The position numbers and the translations under genes are program-made. 64,000 nucleotides of DNA from Methanobacteriota archaeon. GTDB taxonomy: Archaea > Thermoplasmatota > Thermoplasmata > UBA10834. The stretch spans positions 1,535,508 to 1,599,507 of the forward strand of contig CP070732.1 of assembly GCA_020347565.1 (NCBI GenBank). Reading direction: 5' to 3'. Within the stretch, counting starts at the first letter, position 1; every line of letters starts with the position of its first letter. Shown here piece after piece: positions 27,635 to 37,400 of the stretch. A model generated the notes under the pieces. The model made no database searches, was not told the origin of the DNA, and saw only the letters and a program-made list of their open reading frames with translations.

Positions 27635-30322
27635 TCAGCTGCGCGAAAAGGTACATTTCCGGTGGAGATCCACCCTCTTGTGCCCGAACGGGAGCAGCAT
27701 CGTTTCCGCCGCGCGGACCAGCAGGTCCACGTATGCTTCGTCGTCGTACTCCTCGTCGCCGATCAGCAACGGTTCCACCCTCACGCGCGCTCGGTCGTCC
27801 CGGCTCCCGCCGTCCGTTATGACGTACCTCACAGTCTCTCCGGGCTTGACCTCCGCGCCCTCTCGCCGCAGCTGCATGAGCACCGCAAGGCCGTCGTTGA
27901 ACTGCTCGTAGTCGTCCGCGCTCTTCGATACCCTCCTCCTGATAAGGAGCTTCTCAAGGGGCACCGATCGCCCTCGAACGGAGTCAACGTAATCTGACAT
28001 CACCTCGAGCGCCTCGGGAACGGCCTCAAGGAACTCCGTGGCGTCGGACGCCTTCGCGAGCGCCGAGAGCATATCGGACTGCATGTCCCTGACGACGCCC
28101 GGCGAGTCGCTCCTCCTCAGCTCTATGCCACGTACCTTGAGCTCGCCCCCCTCGAATAAGCCGTAGTACCTGTTCAGGACGCCCACGCCGCTGACCCTCG
28201 ATGGCAGGAACACTATCCACCTGTACACCCCCTCGGCGTCGAGGGGTATGCCTATGTGGCCAGACGCGTGCTCGCAGAGCCTCTCGGCGTCGCCGTCACC
28301 CTTCAACCAGAGGGAATCGACTATGCCGTGGAGTATCTCGAAGCCGTGCGCCTCGGCGATCTCGGAAGTCTGGAGCATTATCTCCCGCCCGTAAGCGTTG
28401 ATCGCTTCATGGCACTCTATCCGCCCGAACCTCGCGTTCCTGTAGCCGGTGTATCCGAAGCAGTTGTGCACGAGCACGCCGTTCGCCAGCGCGAACCCGT
28501 GTAGCGGACTGGCCACGGACAGGCAGCAGACGTGGTCGCAGGAGGGAGGGCGCCTCCGGGTGGAGCGCACGGCTACGCTCCCGGCGCACTTCTCGCCGTC
28601 CCATGTCCCACGGTAAAGGGGCGGGATCGTCGGCAGGACGTCCCCTTCTGTCAGGTCTTCCGCCCTGCTCAGGCGCAGCCTGTAATCGTCGACGACATAG
28701 CACGGGTGGTCGGGGGTCAACGAGGTAACGCCACAATCCATGCCGAGTTCTATCATCTCGCAGGGCGCCGGGAACGACATGACGCTCGATACGCGCTTCA
28801 CTGCGGGTATCATGTGCTCGTCCGCGCCGAACACGCGGAGGTCGCCGTGCACCGCGTGCTCCCCGAGGCGGCCCCCTGAGCACCTCTCGACTATGTCGCC
28901 TATGGGGGCGATGTCGAACCTGCCATCGAGGCGGTGAGGCACCTCCGTGCGCTCGTCCAGGCATGTCACGAGGAGCCATTTGAGTATGTCCGAGCGCTCC
29001 TTGTACAGCGACACGTCGCCGACGCCGTCCTTGACGAGCCTCTTGAGCCGCGTCCTGCGTTCAATCACGGGCTTGAGCACGCGTGGTATCAGCCCCAAGT
29101 TCCTGTCGCATATGCCGTATCCCAGCACGGGCACAGTCCTCGCAGGCTGCGGGCAGCAATCGCACATTATGGTCTCTGGCGATATGTTGAATCTGGTCAT
29201 TATGTTCGGATAGAGCGATGTGAAGTCCACCTCGAGCACGCGGTCGAATACGCCCACGCGTGGCTCGTAGATGAACCCGCCTCTGTCGGCGATGATCAGC
29301 TCCCTCGCGGTCTTGAACTTCTCCGGGAGGTTCTTCTTCCACATGACCGCACAGCCGTCCATGAGCGCTTGGTTTACCTCCATGGCGCTTATGGCGCTCC
29401 CCGGGGAGAGCCTGGCGAGCTCCTGGACCGGCGTGCGCGATATGCGCGCTAGGTCTATCAGGCCGCCCAGGCCGCTCTCCTCCAGCATGAACGAGTTCTC
29501 GCGGTCGAGGTGCAGTCTTCCACAGAGCTTGTGCGAGGGGGGCTTGTAGAGTATCCGCCCGTACGTGAAATACGATTTGCCCTTGGTGCTCGCCCGGCTA
29601 GACCGGTCTCTTCCGAGCTGCGGCTCGTCGATGCATAGCAGCCTCGCGCGATGGTAGAGGAACGGTATGAGGAACGAGTCCCCGCCGTTCGTGTATATTA
29701 TGTCCGGGTCCCGGCGCGCGATGACCTTCTCCGCCTCTCGTATGACGTCCTCCTCGTCGTCTTCTATGGTCTCTTGGTCCACGGTCAGGCTGATGAGCCT
29801 GTCCTCGAACGATTCCAAGCCTCGCCTCCCGCTGGTGGCTGCCCGTAGTTCTTCGGACGATATAGGCGGCAGCTCGTAGTCCATCTCGAAGGGGTCGTCA
29901 AGCATCTTCGGCTTGGGCGACAGCTCCAGGAGGCCCATGGGGAAGACATCCTTGTCCACGAAGTACCGTTGGCTGAACCTGAGGTCGACGTTGAAGAGGG
30001 TGTACTCGCGATACCTTCCGCGGTTGTCTATCGTCCTCGCGACCTCCTCGACCCTCGAGTAGTCGTTCACCGTGACGCCTAGCACTATCCGCGGCTCCTC
30101 CGCAAGCCAGATGCGCTTTCTATCGCTCTCCACCTCTCCCACGGCGTCCAGTATCGGCAGCGCGCGCTCCAGTTTCCCGAGCTCCTCTTCGGAGGCGTGG
30201 ACGAATATCGTGGGTAGGAAATCCCTGTCGACGACCTTGTGAATGCCTTTCCTGGTCCTGAGCCAATAGACGATCGAGTTCGAGGCATAGTCGGGGTAGA
30301 TGTCGATTATCCATCCCCTCAT
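27635..30322 (-). CDS. family B DNA polymerase, PolB2 (divergent, 'inactivated' clade), intein-containing
   Basis: 895 codons; 728 residues remain after removal of a 167-residue intein (residues 454-620). Motif A is DFTSLYPN (D366 kept). Motif B keeps the Lys (K448) but has LLVT in place of LANS and continues CFGYTGYRNARFG. Motif C reads HGIVDSLW: the first Asp of YxDTDS is Ile667, while the second is kept (D669). The exonuclease I motif is missing, and the exonuclease II region DIIYTNGGDSFLIPFL lacks its Asp. These changes match the archaeal PolB2 family, first described as inactivated (Rogozin and colleagues) and later linked to damage response in Sulfolobales. Both metal-binding carboxylates of motifs A and C survive, so weak polymerase activity is possible. 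Its ATG overlaps the previous gene's stop by 4 nt. Confidence 0.9.
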   Translation of the reverse strand: MRGWIIDIYPDYASNSIVYWLRTRKGIHKVVDRDFLPTIFVHASEEELGKLERALPILDAVGEVESDRKRIWLAEEPRIVLGVTVNDYSRVEEVARTIDNRGRYREYTLFNVDLRFSQRYFVDKDVFPMGLLELSPKPKMLDDPFEMDYELPPISSEELRAATSGRRGLESFEDRLISLTVDQETIEDDEEDVIREAEKVIARRDPDIIYTNGGDSFLIPFLYHRARLLCIDEPQLGRDRSSRASTKGKSYFTYGRILYKPPSHKLCGRLHLDRENSFMLEESGLGGLIDLARISRTPVQELARLSPGSAISAMEVNQALMDGCAVMWKKNLPEKFKTARELIIADRGGFIYEPRVGVFDRVLEVDFTSLYPNIMTRFNISPETIMCDCCPQPARTVPVLGYGICDRNLGLIPRVLKPVIERRTRLKRLVKDGVGDVSLYKERSDILKWLLVTCLDERTEVPHRLDGRFDIAPIGDIVERCSGGRLGEHAVHGDLRVFGADEHMIPAVKRVSSVMSFPAPCEMIELGMDCGVTSLTPDHPCYVVDDYRLRLSRAEDLTEGDVLPTIPPLYRGTWDGEKCAGSVAVRSTRRRPPSCDHVCCLSVASPLHGFALANGVLVHNCFGYTGYRNARFGRIECHEAINAYGREIMLQTSEIAEAHGFEILHGIVDSLWLKGDGDAERLCEHASGHIGIPLDAEGVYRWIVFLPSRVSGVGVLNRYYGLFEGGELKVRGIELRRSDSPGVVRDMQSDMLSALAKASDATEFLEAVPEALEVMSDYVDSVRGRSVPLEKLLIRRRVSKSADDYEQFNDGLAVLMQLRREGAEVKPGETVRYVITDGGSRDDRARVRVEPLLIGDEEYDDEAYVDLLVRAAETMLLPFGHKRVDLHRKCTFSRS
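28463..28963 (-). mobile_element. mini-intein within PolB2
   Basis: A 167-residue in-frame insert. It begins with Cys1 (CLDERTEVP, block A) and has the block B motif GVTSLTPDHPCYV with the T-x-x-H pair. It ends with block F (CCLSVASPLHGFALANG) and block G VLVHN, with Cys as the +1 extein residue. About 75 residues separate blocks B and F, and no LAGLIDADG or HNH endonuclease motif is seen, so it is a mini-intein. All splicing residues are present (Cys1, block B His, penultimate His, terminal Asn, Cys+1). Removing it joins KWLLVT to CFGYTGY across polymerase motif B. Confidence 0.92.
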
Positions 30323-30621
30323 CCGGGCCGCCCACCGTCCCCTTCATCACACTCATCCCGGTCGTTGCGCTTGCCGCCGCCGTCCAGCGCCTCCCTGAGA
30401 CGTATCAGCTCCTTCTCGTGCTCCAGCAGCATCGACAGAAGCGCCGACTCCGTGGGGTCGAGGCTGACGGCGTAGGTCGCGGCCGACGCGTGCATCCTCG
30501 CGCTCCTTATGAGCGACTCGAATGCCTCTCTGTCGCCCTTCCTAAGCGCCCTACGGAAGTCGCTCCACTGCTGTGCCATCCGCTCAAGGGCGACGCGGTA
30601 TGTTGGTACGGTCCTCCCCAT
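30319..30621 (-). CDS. small conserved protein of the PolB2 cassette
   Basis: 100 residues beginning MGRTVPTYRVALERM. Mostly helical, with Arg-rich stretches (WSDFRRALRKGDREAFESL), and an acidic, glycine-rich C-terminus. I recognise it only as a small archaeal protein found beside PolB2-type genes; function unknown. ATG 30621 lies inside the end of the RecA-fold gene (38-nt overlap), and its stop overlaps the PolB2 start by ATGA, so all three are translationally coupled. It may bridge the RecA-like protein and the polymerase. Confidence 0.78.
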   Translation of the reverse strand: MGRTVPTYRVALERMAQQWSDFRRALRKGDREAFESLIRSARMHASAATYAVSLDPTESALLSMLLEHEKELIRLREALDGGGKRNDRDECDEGDGGRPG

Positions 30622-31375
30622 GGAATCCCCCCGTGAAATCGTCGAGAACCATCTGGTTCCAGGGGACGGGCAAGAAGTAGGCAGAGCGCCCCTCCCTCGA
30701 CGAACGAACTGATATGCCATTCCTGCTGGCGCGGATTCTCACCGACCGGTCGAAGGCACCGTGCAGCAGGGACATCACCTTCGGCTCCGGACGCACACGA
30801 CCCGGCGTGTGGGACGAGACCACGGTGATCGTGTCGCGCTCCTTGGTCACCCTCGCTACCTCGTCCGCACACCTGCGCAGCAGCTGATACGATTCATACC
30901 GTCTCATGTCCTTGTCCATGAACATGTCCGAGATGGACGAGACTATTATCGTAGACGGGGCGCATCTCTCCGCCTCCGTCTCGAGGCCATCGTCTACAAG
31001 GGAGACTAGCTGGTATGCTGTGAACGCACGCGCAACGTTCACCATGGACAGCATGGCGTGCTTGTCATGGCCGAGGCGTTTGCACAACGCGGACAGCGTA
31101 TATGGGTCGATGACGTTGCCTCCGTCTATCCATATCACCTCCTCCCCGAACTCCGCGAGCGAGCGGACGCACAGGATGTGCATCAGCTCCGAAGCGTACC
31201 CGGTATCCGAATCAAGCAGTGTCGCTTGGGATGATTTGAGCCCGCGTATGACGTCATCGAGCGGCGGGATCGCCGTGTTGAGGGTTCTCTCTCTCCCGAG
31301 CTGTGAGAGCCCTTCTTCGCTGCTGAGCGGGTCGTCGAAAGGACCTATGATATGGGCGTTTGTGGGAGCCGTCAT
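30584..31375 (-). CDS. RecA/RadA-fold protein lacking a P-loop (PolB2 partner)
   Basis: 263 residues. The layout follows RadA/RecA: TAIPPLDDVIRGLKSSQ is the start of the core, but the Walker A position reads LLDSDTGYASEL with no GK[T/S]. The Walker B strand (STIIVSSISDMF) lacks its Asp. Later strands (DTITVVSSHTPG) follow the same fold. It is therefore probably an ATPase-dead RecA paralogue, as known beside PolB2 in other archaea. A TTTAA element about 30 nt before ATG 31375 suits a leaderless transcript for the three-gene operon. The family assignment comes from pattern rather than alignment. Confidence 0.75.
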   Translation of the reverse strand: MTAPTNAHIIGPFDDPLSSEEGLSQLGRERTLNTAIPPLDDVIRGLKSSQATLLDSDTGYASELMHILCVRSLAEFGEEVIWIDGGNVIDPYTLSALCKRLGHDKHAMLSMVNVARAFTAYQLVSLVDDGLETEAERCAPSTIIVSSISDMFMDKDMRRYESYQLLRRCADEVARVTKERDTITVVSSHTPGRVRPEPKVMSLLHGAFDRSVRIRASRNGISVRSSREGRSAYFLPVPWNQMVLDDFTGGFHGEDRTNIPRRP

Positions 31376-33478: not shown

Positions 33479-36364
33479 ATGGTTTATCCGGAAGGGATCG
33501 GGGACATGGCGCCGAGAAAGACGAAGACAAAATCTCCAGCGCCCGAGCACAGAGAAGAGGCTAAGGCTCCTGAGGACTTCAACAGGAGGCTGGAGCGAGC
33601 CGAAGCCCCAAGGGCTCGAAAGGCTGCGATGCTGCAGCTGAGGATGGGCAGGGTCGCCCACGTGCTTGGCTTAGCCTCCGGCCTGGCCCTCGCTGCGACG
33701 GCGGTCCTCGCGTATCTGCTCGAGAACTGGGAACTGCTTATAGACGCCCCAGAGTACGTCACTGTCCTGAAGTGGATTGTCCCTCTGATGGCTGGAGTCA
33801 TCGCCGCTTTGGTCGCGCTCGGCGTCAAATGGGAGCCATACTTCGCCGATAGACGAGAGCCGCATTTCGCTCTCAACGTCGCCGCCTTCATCGTGCCGGC
33901 GGTCTTCATCGCGCTGATCGCGCTCGACGAGATGGGCGAGGTCGCCCTGGGACGGCCCGATTGGCTGTACCCGGCGTCTCTTCTCGGAATAACGCTGACG
34001 ATGATATCACTCGCGCTCACATGGGAGGGCAGGGGCAGGAGAAAGGCCATCAGCATCGCCGCCGCGATGTTCCCGCCATCCCTCCTGGTGTTCCCCATGG
34101 TCTTTCACTTCGCACCGATCGACCTCGCGAGCATCCTGCCGATGGCATACCTTGGCAGCGCCGTCGCGGTGCAGCTGAGCGGTTCGATGCTGCACATTAT
34201 CGCCAGCTCGACCTCCATCCAAGAGCGGGAGGTGCTGAAGGCGAGCGACGGCAAGCTGAGGGAGCAGATAAAGGAGCTGGAGAGAAGGGCTGTTGCGCTC
34301 GATTACAGGGAGGAGGCCTTCAGGACGAAGGAGTCCGACCTCGAGGCCTACGAGAGACGGCTATCTGAGGAGCTGGAAGTCATCGACGACCGGAAGATGC
34401 ACATAGAGAAGATGGAGTCCGAGCTCGAGCTGCGCGCCCAGGATGCGAAGAGCGCCCGCCAGGAGCTGACCAAGAAGGAGGTCGAGATAGAGACGCAACT
34501 GGACACGCTACGGCTCAAGGAAACGGACACAGAAACACAGAAGCGCGAGGTCGACAAGCGTGTCAAGAGCGTGACCTCCAAGGAGATGAAGCTGGCGAAG
34601 AAGGGATCCGAGCTCGAGCAGAAGCTGCTCGAGGCCACGGCGAAGGAGCGCGACCTGAAGCGTCAGATTGCAGATATCGCGGAGGAGCGGAAGTCCTTCG
34701 AGTCTGTCAGGGCGGAGCTCGAAACGCTCCAGGCAGAGCTGGCGGAGAAGGAGAAGCAGCTTGCGAAGCGCGAAACGACCGTCGACGTGGGCATGCTGCA
34801 GAGCTTGGCCGCGAAGAAGGGAGCTGGCAAGGGCGATGAGGCGACAGCTGTCGAGAGTCTGCGGCAGCAGCTTCTCATCAGCAAGGAAGCCGTCGCCGAG
34901 AAGGAGATAGCTCTCAGGACGCGCGAGGAGGAGATCCGCAAGAAGGCGCAGAAAGCAGAGAGGCTGGTAGCCCGAGCGGACAAGCAGATGAACGATCTCG
35001 TCGAGAAGGAATCGCAGCTTCTAGAGCGGGAGAAGGAGATCGCGCAGACGGAGGCCGGCCTGCGGACCGCGATGGACAGCCTCGAGGCGCAGGGCGAGGA
35101 GATCCGCCTCACGAAGGAGGACGCGATGGAGGCGGAGAAGCAGTACGCTGCTCTCGCGAAGTCGCTGAGGGACAAGCTCGGGGAGGCCAACGAGCAGAAG
35201 GAGGAGCTCAGCAGGAAGCGCATGTCACTCGAGAGGCGCGAGGGCATCGTCAAGGAACTCGAGGCGCGTCTTAAGGCGGAGCACGAGCGCGCCAACGCGA
35301 AGGTCCGTGAGCTCATAGCCAAGGACAAGTCGCTCAACGCAAAGGAGACAGAGCTGGGGCTCAAGCTGGCCGAGCTGAAGTCCAAGGAGCGCAGCCTGTT
35401 CAAGAGCGTGACGGATTTCGATAGCGCACGGTCAGGCGTCGTGGAGGCGGACGCCGAAGGGATGAAGGCGCTTGACGTTAGAGAGCGTCGGCTCAAGGAT
35501 AAGGAGCGGGAGATGAAGGCTCGGCTGTACCAGCGTGAGAAAGAGCTGGAGAAGCGCGAGCGGGCGCTGCAGACGCAGCTGAAGAAGGACATCGACGATC
35601 TCGGAGCGGAAGTCGAGACGGAGTACGCCGACAAGAAGGTGAAGACTGGCATCGAGCGCCTGGACGACCTGCTGCTCGGCGGCATGCCCTTCGCTGCGAA
35701 CGTACTCTACGTCGGCCCGCCGTTCATAGGCAAGGAGACGGCGACGATGTTGTTCGTCGCCGAGGGGCTCAAGAAGGGCGTGCCCGCGGTCATCGTGACG
35801 ACCTCTCACCCGCCGGTGGAGGTCGCGAGGATGATGGCGCCGATAATGCCGACGTTCGTCGAGTTCGAGCAGCTTGGACTCGTACGATGGATCGACGCCA
35901 CGGGCTCTCCGGATGAGTCGCGCAGCGGCGACGGGACCGGGAACGTGACGAAGGTCGACGGGCCGGACGACTACAAGGGCATAGGCTCAGCGATGGACGA
36001 CATCGCATCGTCCCTGAGCGGCGATGGCCACCCCTACTTCAGGGTCGTCTATCTGTCGCTATCGATGAGCGTTCCCGAAGCGGACAACAAGGCGGCGTAC
36101 AGGTTCGTGCAGGCCTTCGCCACCAGGGTGAGGCAGTCAAACGCCGTCGGCGTGTACACGCTCGAGAAGGGCATGCACTCAGAACAGCAGATAGAGTCGA
36201 TCCAGCATCAGATGACCGGCGCGGTGGAGTTCAAGACCGACAAGAAGAAGACTCTGCTCTCCGTCCAGGGCATATGCGACGCCCAAACGCGTGACTGGGT
36301 GGAGTACAGGCACACGAACAAGTCGCTGACGATAGGAGCATTTTCGCTCGAGCGGATAAGATAG
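33479..36364 (+). CDS. membrane-anchored coiled-coil protein with degenerate KaiC/RecA-like domain
   Basis: 961 residues in three parts. Residues 55-235 hold about six membrane helices (for example GLASGLALAATAVLAYLL and WIVPLMAGVIAALVALGV). Residues about 240-705 are one long, highly charged coiled coil with repeating heptads (such as ELEKRERALQTQLKK). Residues about 715-961 resemble a KaiC/RadA ATPase: VKTGIERLDDLLLGGMPF, then a Walker A-like GPPFIGKET (G746-K752), in which the usual T/S after GK is Glu. The Walker B strand (FRVVYLSLS) lacks its Asp. It may be an SMC-like or receptor-like scaffold tied to the membrane; function unknown. ATG 33506 is an alternative start. A GTTTAAGTATCC TATA region lies at about 33425-33436. 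Confidence 0.85.
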   Translation: MVYPEGIGDMAPRKTKTKSPAPEHREEAKAPEDFNRRLERAEAPRARKAAMLQLRMGRVAHVLGLASGLALAATAVLAYLLENWELLIDAPEYVTVLKWIVPLMAGVIAALVALGVKWEPYFADRREPHFALNVAAFIVPAVFIALIALDEMGEVALGRPDWLYPASLLGITLTMISLALTWEGRGRRKAISIAAAMFPPSLLVFPMVFHFAPIDLASILPMAYLGSAVAVQLSGSMLHIIASSTSIQEREVLKASDGKLREQIKELERRAVALDYREEAFRTKESDLEAYERRLSEELEVIDDRKMHIEKMESELELRAQDAKSARQELTKKEVEIETQLDTLRLKETDTETQKREVDKRVKSVTSKEMKLAKKGSELEQKLLEATAKERDLKRQIADIAEERKSFESVRAELETLQAELAEKEKQLAKRETTVDVGMLQSLAAKKGAGKGDEATAVESLRQQLLISKEAVAEKEIALRTREEEIRKKAQKAERLVARADKQMNDLVEKESQLLEREKEIAQTEAGLRTAMDSLEAQGEEIRLTKEDAMEAEKQYAALAKSLRDKLGEANEQKEELSRKRMSLERREGIVKELEARLKAEHERANAKVRELIAKDKSLNAKETELGLKLAELKSKERSLFKSVTDFDSARSGVVEADAEGMKALDVRERRLKDKEREMKARLYQREKELEKRERALQTQLKKDIDDLGAEVETEYADKKVKTGIERLDDLLLGGMPFAANVLYVGPPFIGKETATMLFVAEGLKKGVPAVIVTTSHPPVEVARMMAPIMPTFVEFEQLGLVRWIDATGSPDESRSGDGTGNVTKVDGPDDYKGIGSAMDDIASSLSGDGHPYFRVVYLSLSMSVPEADNKAAYRFVQAFATRVRQSNAVGVYTLEKGMHSEQQIESIQHQMTGAVEFKTDKKKTLLSVQGICDAQTRDWVEYRHTNKSLTIGAFSLERIR

Positions 36365-36422: not shown

Positions 36423-37400
36423 GTGCCCTCAGCGATCTACGACACGGGAAACGGCATCGTTCTGAAAGCGGACGACGTGAGGTATCGGCTCGATCCGCCG
36501 CGCCCTGTAGCCAATGACCGGAACGTCGTGTCGCACGCGCACTCGGACCACGCTCCGCTCCGCTTCCGCGACGTCCCGATTCTGTGTTCGGATGCTACGT
36601 ACGACCTTCTCCGATTGCGCCGGAAGGGCCTGCGCCGGACCAGCTGCGACAATGTAGAGTTGCTGGATGCGGGGCACATCCCTGGGTCCAGGATGATCGC
36701 CTTGGAGTGCTGCGATATCAGGATGCTGTACACCGGCGACTTCTGTACGAGGAGAAAGAACCACCTGAGCCCCGCAAGACCGGCGCCGTGCGACGTGCTC
36801 GTCACGGAGACGACTTACGGCAAGGAGGGCTACGAGTTCCCCGACCACGAGGAAACCGTGGGTGCCATCTCTGATTGGGTGGATTCCAACCTCGCGTCAG
36901 ACCGAAGCGTCGTGCTGCTCGCTTATCCTCTGGGCAAAGCCCAGGAGCTGGCGTACGAGCTGGGCGGCAGGCCGGTCAGGGTGCAAAGGGGCATAGGTGA
37001 CAACCACCGTGTGCTTCGCGCGCACGGGTTCACACTGCCGACGGAAGGCCTCGGGAACGCTCTGCCGACGCAGCCAGTCGTCTACATCACATCCGGGCTC
37101 GGGAGGGAGTCGGCCCGTGTCGACAGGCTGGTCAAGGACGGCGCGAAGACGGCGTCTTTCTCGGGGTGGTCCGCGAACGGTTCCGGCTGGCGGCCAGCGC
37201 ACCGAACGGACGAGGAGTTCCCGCTCTCGGACCACTGCGACTACAACGAACTCATGGAGTTCGTAAGGCTTTGTGGTCCGGAGCGCGTGCTCGCGACGCA
37301 TGGCTTCGCCCGCGAGTTCTCCGAGTCCGTGAAGAACGAGCTTGGGATCGACGCGGGCCCGCTGCAGAGAGGTCAAAGCGTTCTCGGCTCATTTGTCTGA
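36423..37400 (+). CDS. metallo-beta-lactamase-fold exonuclease, mRNA 3'-end processing factor family
   Basis: 325 residues. The zinc motif HAHSDH (H38, H40, D42, H43) is followed by DAGHIPGS, YTGDF and the C-terminal SDHCDYNELMEF and ATHGF. This is the beta-CASP-like arrangement of COG1236, related to CPSF73 and Artemis, acting on RNA or DNA ends. The start is GTG 36423, preceded by AGGAGG at 7 nt. It lies 58 nt after the membrane coiled-coil gene and convergent with cbf5. Confidence 0.86.
   Translation: MPSAIYDTGNGIVLKADDVRYRLDPPRPVANDRNVVSHAHSDHAPLRFRDVPILCSDATYDLLRLRRKGLRRTSCDNVELLDAGHIPGSRMIALECCDIRMLYTGDFCTRRKNHLSPARPAPCDVLVTETTYGKEGYEFPDHEETVGAISDWVDSNLASDRSVVLLAYPLGKAQELAYELGGRPVRVQRGIGDNHRVLRAHGFTLPTEGLGNALPTQPVVYITSGLGRESARVDRLVKDGAKTASFSGWSANGSGWRPAHRTDEEFPLSDHCDYNELMEFVRLCGPERVLATHGFAREFSESVKNELGIDAGPLQRGQSVLGSFV

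Follow-up and report, generated by a model that had tools for sequence, protein, structure and literature searches.

An anchored coiled-coil protein with an inactivated KaiC-like domain in Thermoplasmatota, a candidate membrane scaffold

What might a protein do that carries membrane helices, a long coil and a KaiC-like domain in a single chain? Such a protein is encoded in the 64,000-nucleotide stretch of DNA analysed here (hereafter the window), which belongs to a genome of one contig of 1.97 Mb. KaiC-type proteins of archaea are proposed signalling hubs, while for the host archaeal group we know of almost no cell biology. An earlier note on this DNA described anchor, coil and degenerate KaiC domain in one chain, which is confirmed, and proposed roles for the protein; this interpretation is supported in part, as set out below.

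Domain architecture and distribution

The open reading frame (ORF; window 33479-36364, plus strand) has 961 codons and is intact, with zero in-frame stops. Since homologues begin with MAPRK, the true start is most likely Met10, at base 33506 (Table 1). The N-terminal tail is poorly conserved until about residue 40 in the homologue alignment. One homologue (L007, G008:C105) has an in-frame TAG in this tail, ahead of the membrane domain, which may mean that translation starts at a later codon, or else that the sequence is faulty.

Table 1 Coordinates of the features discussed. Positions without a prefix are those of the window; residues are those of the listed ORF.
Feature	Position	Strand	Remarks
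Whole gene	33506..36364	+	952 aa counted from Met10, the likely start; ORF intact
N-terminal tail, basic, residues 10-57, predicted cytoplasmic	33506..33649	+	13 K+R versus 7 D+E
Six-helix membrane domain, residues 58-243, predicted N-in/C-in	33650..34207	+	Hydropathy, alignment, profile A2, low-confidence AlphaFold model
Coiled coil, residues 259-703	34253..35587	+	Heptad period 3.53; length 354-442 in 39 homologues
Gly-rich coil break, residues ~436-456	34784..34846	+	Seen in representatives of f1, f15, f62 and f10, at 41-43% of the coil
Second flexible point, residues ~648-660, ahead of the last coil segment	35420..35458	+	Gly/Pro-rich columns 655-657
Inactivated KaiC-like (iKaiC) domain, residues 704-961	35588..36361	+	Pfam PF06745, PF24336; profile A1; Foldseek top PH0284/2dr3
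Degenerate Walker A GPPFIGKET, residues 746-754	35714..35740	+	Glu replaces Thr/Ser in all 40 members
Degenerate Walker B region FRVVYLSLSMSV, residues ~854-865, Asp to Leu	36038..36073	+	Alignment with same-genome KaiC paralogues
C-terminal tail GAFSLERIR, conserved	36335..36361	+	Form common to the family and paralogues
Permease-linked copies of part of the membrane domain	L173:2205-3869 (own genome, around G000:C1:780059-780544)	-	Pfam BPD_transp_1 and OppC_N matched
Permease-linked copies of part of the membrane domain	L041:3233-5434	+	Pfam BPD_transp_1 and OppC_N matched
Permease-linked copies of part of the membrane domain	L042:5944-8148	+	
Permease-linked copies of part of the membrane domain	L043:192-1769	+	
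KaiC-Ras/Arf GTPase fusion and Roadblock, then stand-alone iKaiC	L093:8163-14703	-	Also T2SSF, T2SSE
KaiC-Ras/Arf GTPase fusion and Roadblock, then stand-alone iKaiC	L099:8905-11722	-	
Duplicated T2SSE/T2SSF and pilin-like gene adjoining HhH/coil/iKaiC paralogue	L115:10780-17382; L130:1876-8339		

Hydropathy places six membrane segments within residues 58-243, in agreement with the polytopic anchor that the earlier note had proposed, and the low-confidence AlphaFold model of this part (pTM 0.30) also contains six helices. From the loop charges, both ends of the membrane domain are predicted to be cytoplasmic, and the extracytoplasmic loops are short, at 6-14 residues. Mean conservation along residues 41-240 is 0.56-0.74. 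A sequence search of the PDB with this domain gave no convincing homologue, and its profile had 0 matches outside the class in a 293-genome sample of the phylum. Part of the same domain also lies inside or ahead of DppC/OppC-type peptide permeases of family f1, in one or two copies.

The coil was judged by its hydrophobic periodicity. Over residues 259-700 the period is 3.53 with a power of 3.04, which none of 1,000 shuffled sequences reached (maximum 2.19). The earlier note had read a coiled coil of about 450 residues; the length (about 440 residues) and the heptad period bear this out, but the coil is not an unbroken rod, since a Gly/Pro scan located Gly-rich breaks at residues ~436-456 and ~648-660. 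The break at about 42% is present in some representatives and not in all, and a late break at 86-94% of the coil length recurs in f2, f64, f65 and f10. A fully helical coil would extend about 65 nm (440 x 0.1485 nm), and because of the breaks this reach is an upper bound. Coil length is 417 ± 26 residues (range 354-442) in 39 homologues and 429-442 in f1, f2, f62 and f64-66. Between families, identity is 23-29% in the coil, 30-44% in the membrane domain and 41-53% in the iKaiC domain. The near-constant length despite such low identity fits a spacer as far as sequence comparison can tell, and a function of the coil as a ruler is hypothetical.

The order of anchor, coil and iKaiC domain holds in 39/39 distinct long homologues of the membrane domain read end to end, which span eight families (f1, f2, f10, f15, f62, f64, f65 and f66) of one Thermoplasmatota class. 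The same order in other Thermoplasmatota, which the earlier note had suggested looking for, is thus present. Homologues with the regions as separate genes would have spoken against a single protein; the two apparent splits, at L015/L037 (a run of N) and at L019 (overlapping frames), both look like assembly faults. The named relatives are uncultured Thermoplasmatota, and full-length relatives of the protein occur through the family and order of the window genome. The membrane-domain profile matched 80/250 genomes of the class, and the membrane form is counted in 79 after one genome with a permease-type match only was taken out; the genomes are mostly MAGs, so that absences are uncertain.

The KaiC-like domain and its gene neighbourhoods

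The C-terminal end matches the Pfam KaiC model PF06745 with 44.2 bits (cut-off 26.6) and the DUF7504 model PF24336 with 46.1 bits (cut-off 27). The KaiC-like identity that the earlier note gave to this end is therefore genuine, and a C-terminal domain unrelated to KaiC/RadA, which it named as a ground for rejection, was not found. Profile A1, built on this domain, matches KaiC chains in the PDB. The AlphaFold model of the domain has moderate confidence (pTM 0.60); the models of both the iKaiC and membrane parts are weak because their alignments are shallow, with 7-8 close sequences.

GPPFIGKET aligns with the canonical GxxGTGKTT of KaiC paralogues from the same genome and is, as first read, a degenerate Walker A. 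The family lacks the GxxxxGK[TS] pattern; its consensus is G-P-[PA]-F-x-G-K-E, with the Glu in 40/40 and the Lys in 39/40 members. The degeneracy goes beyond Walker A, which alone had been seen before: the Walker B Asp, replaced mostly by Leu or Met, and a second catalytic Glu, replaced mostly by Arg, Lys or His, are also lost. By these substitutions, the iKaiC domain of the membrane form is predicted to be dead as an ATPase in a conserved way. The constancy of the Walker A Lys and Glu suggests that this site may have been retained for a reason. The protein thus combines a KaiC fold that has lost its catalytic residues with further parts, and we use the term iKaiC as in PMC5847659, which describes inactivated KaiC domains in fusions with other modules.

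The domain is not confined to the membrane form. In a sample of the phylum, iKaiC genes occur in 121/390 genomes, as stand-alone forms (~240 and ~320 aa) and as forms of ~600, ~800 and ~950 aa. The window genome also encodes a paralogue with Zn-ribbon, helix-hairpin-helix (HhH), coiled-coil and iKaiC parts, in which HhH_5 (PF14520) is significant (E = 4.7e-13). In the tree, the membrane form is a single clade with support of 99/99, and the HhH/coil paralogues form a separate clade (89/85). The paralogues have the Walker A Glu in 42/46 cases and mostly Arg at the Walker B Asp, which 7/15 stand-alone forms keep; none of the three kinds (membrane form, paralogues and stand-alone forms) retains the second catalytic Glu. 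Inactivation thus seems to have begun before the membrane form arose.

Within f1, the membrane form lies upstream of a metallo-beta-lactamase (MBL)-fold gene and faces a secY cluster (secY-EMC3-cmk-truB). Beyond this family-level synteny there is no conserved neighbour and no cluster common to other families, and no pilus genes adjoin the membrane form itself. In the window, the MBL-fold protein (36423-37400, plus strand) has a weak RMMBL match, begins 58 bases downstream of the iKaiC gene and is kept throughout f1. Two other genes of the window, both on the minus strand, may be recorded here. A family B DNA polymerase (27635-30322) with HGIVDS as motif C carries an in-frame, mini-intein-like insertion from Cys to HN-Cys, for which no Pfam intein model was matched, and a small Rad51/RadB-like protein (30584-31375) scores 19.2 bits, under the Pfam cut-off of 22.

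The relatives have other neighbours. Paralogues in f1, f18, f20 and f21 are near pilin-like, T2SSE and T2SSF genes, and in many families the HhH/coil/iKaiC paralogue is followed by a small convergent gene of ~148 aa. The stand-alone iKaiC of f29 belongs to a single gene run that also holds T2SSE, T2SSF, Roadblock and a KaiC-Ras/Arf GTPase fusion. The same fusion and Roadblock precede the iKaiC relative in f43, and T2SSE/F genes lie beside the relative in f39. The arrangement in f1 and f18-f21 may go back to a single ancestral synteny, which leaves perhaps three independent cases. KaiC-family ATPases close to archaeal type IV pilus (T4P) loci have been published (PMC4858521).

Possible functions

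We favour, at about even confidence, a passive membrane tether and scaffold that would recruit or hold a signalling or T4P-like regulatory complex. The long signalling scaffold of the earlier note fits the combination of anchor, coil and degenerate KaiC domain and its repetition in relatives. The coil is predicted to pair chains of the membrane form and would hold the dead KaiC domain at most about 65 nm into the cytoplasm. Without ATP cycling but with the fold kept, the iKaiC domain would probably bind a RecA-fold partner, and candidates are the iKaiC domain of the soluble Zn-ribbon/HhH paralogue, KaiC, or a secretion ATPase, as ArlH pairs with ArlI. ArlH is KaiC-like, binds ATP without hydrolysis and stimulates the archaellum ATPase ArlI (PMC8978795); a similar contact may exist between the iKaiC end and a RecA-fold or secretion ATPase partner. 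A stronger version, modelled on chemoreceptor arrays, is a molecular ruler in which dead, oligomeric iKaiC heads at a near-fixed depth of 50-65 nm would form a subsurface docking platform for active KaiC, Roadblock/GTPase or pilus ATPases; we regard it as quite unlikely.

A sensor or transducer, in which the six helices would sense a membrane or extracellular cue and the coil would relay it to the iKaiC output as in chemoreceptors, is a tentative alternative that we doubt. The membrane domain is conserved perhaps beyond the needs of a bare anchor, part of it recurs in the f1 DppC-type permeases, and the coil breaks recur; however, its short extracytoplasmic loops leave no external sensor domain, and no HAMP, REC or kinase domain was matched by Pfam in the protein. 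Chromosome tethering, one of the roles first suggested, would have the iKaiC domains of the membrane form and of the Zn-ribbon/HhH paralogue bind each other while the HhH part grips DNA, linking nucleoid and membrane. A second iKaiC gene is present in 16 of the 18 membrane-form genomes that could be recognised among those with iKaiC genes, and the coil is spacer-like. But the sole pointer to DNA is the HhH domain of a paralogue, HhH domains bind proteins too, and the membrane form itself carries no indication of DNA binding. Moreover, the HhH paralogue is common in genomes without the membrane form, and in several families it adjoins pilus-like rather than DNA genes, which makes the tether to DNA unlikely.

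We also weighed roles in known machines. A part in the swimming motor, as a polar organiser or as a regulator akin to ArlH, would suit the KaiC-like, non-hydrolysing nature of ArlH (PMC8978795), and the window genome has archaellins. In the 250-genome class sample, however, the membrane form is slightly depleted where archaellin occurs (79 genomes with the membrane form, 43 with archaellin, 8 with both; odds ratio 0.44, Fisher p = 0.048, uncorrected for relatedness), and no archaellin was detected in 71/79 membrane-form genomes. The protein was also not among the matches of the NCBIfam ArlH model NF052589 at E ≤ 0.01, and we hold a part in the archaellum to be very improbable. Least credible is a membrane-bound SMC-like DNA machine, for which the chance seems slight indeed. 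The likeness to a membrane-tethered SMC that had been drawn at first stems from the combination of a long coil and a RecA-fold domain, and SMC models do match weakly, but at 15-17 bits against cut-offs of 567-729 and in every case within the coil; a split ABC head is absent and the catalytic residues are lost. Membership of the SMC proteins was rejected, the N-terminal end being membrane helices and the C-terminal end KaiC rather than ABC head halves. A search for defence systems gave only coil-level noise to JetC.

The tether and scaffold reading also draws on the gene neighbourhoods of the relatives and on the second iKaiC gene in 16 of those 18 genomes; that the membrane form has no conserved neighbour outside f1 and is not beside pilus genes counts against it. 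The L093 arrangement, like the proximity of the relatives to Roadblock, KaiC-GTPase and pilus genes in general, recalls the control of pili by MglA/MglB in Myxococcus, a parallel that can be tested. A membrane-anchored iKaiC domain with a spacer-like coil is a concrete candidate for the spatial placement of a KaiC signalling hub.

Comparison with known systems

We found no published description of the anchor-coil-iKaiC architecture in the searchable literature, which did not cover the main review (Makarova 2017). SMC proteins likewise have a long coiled coil that ends in a P-loop fold, whereas the window protein has a membrane anchor in place of the ABC head and split nucleotide-binding domain. 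PH0284 (PDB 2dr3), a KaiC-like ATPase of Pyrococcus, is the best Foldseek match of the modelled iKaiC domain (E = 1.2e-4) and matches the profile with E = 1.1e-19; it is a single-domain chain, and identity in the Foldseek alignments is 17-22%. ArlH (also FlaH) has neither a membrane domain nor a long coil. It shares with the window family a KaiC fold without ATP hydrolysis, predicted in the latter and reported for ArlH (PMC8978795), which regulates a T2SSE-type ATPase; ArlH is archaellum-specific, whereas the membrane-form family is mostly in genomes without detected archaellin. Closest are the KaiC-like/DUF7504 proteins of archaea, since the C-terminal domain exceeds both Pfam cut-offs. To the known iKaiC proteins, the window protein adds a six-helix domain and a coil of about 440 residues in front, together with a conserved Walker A Glu.
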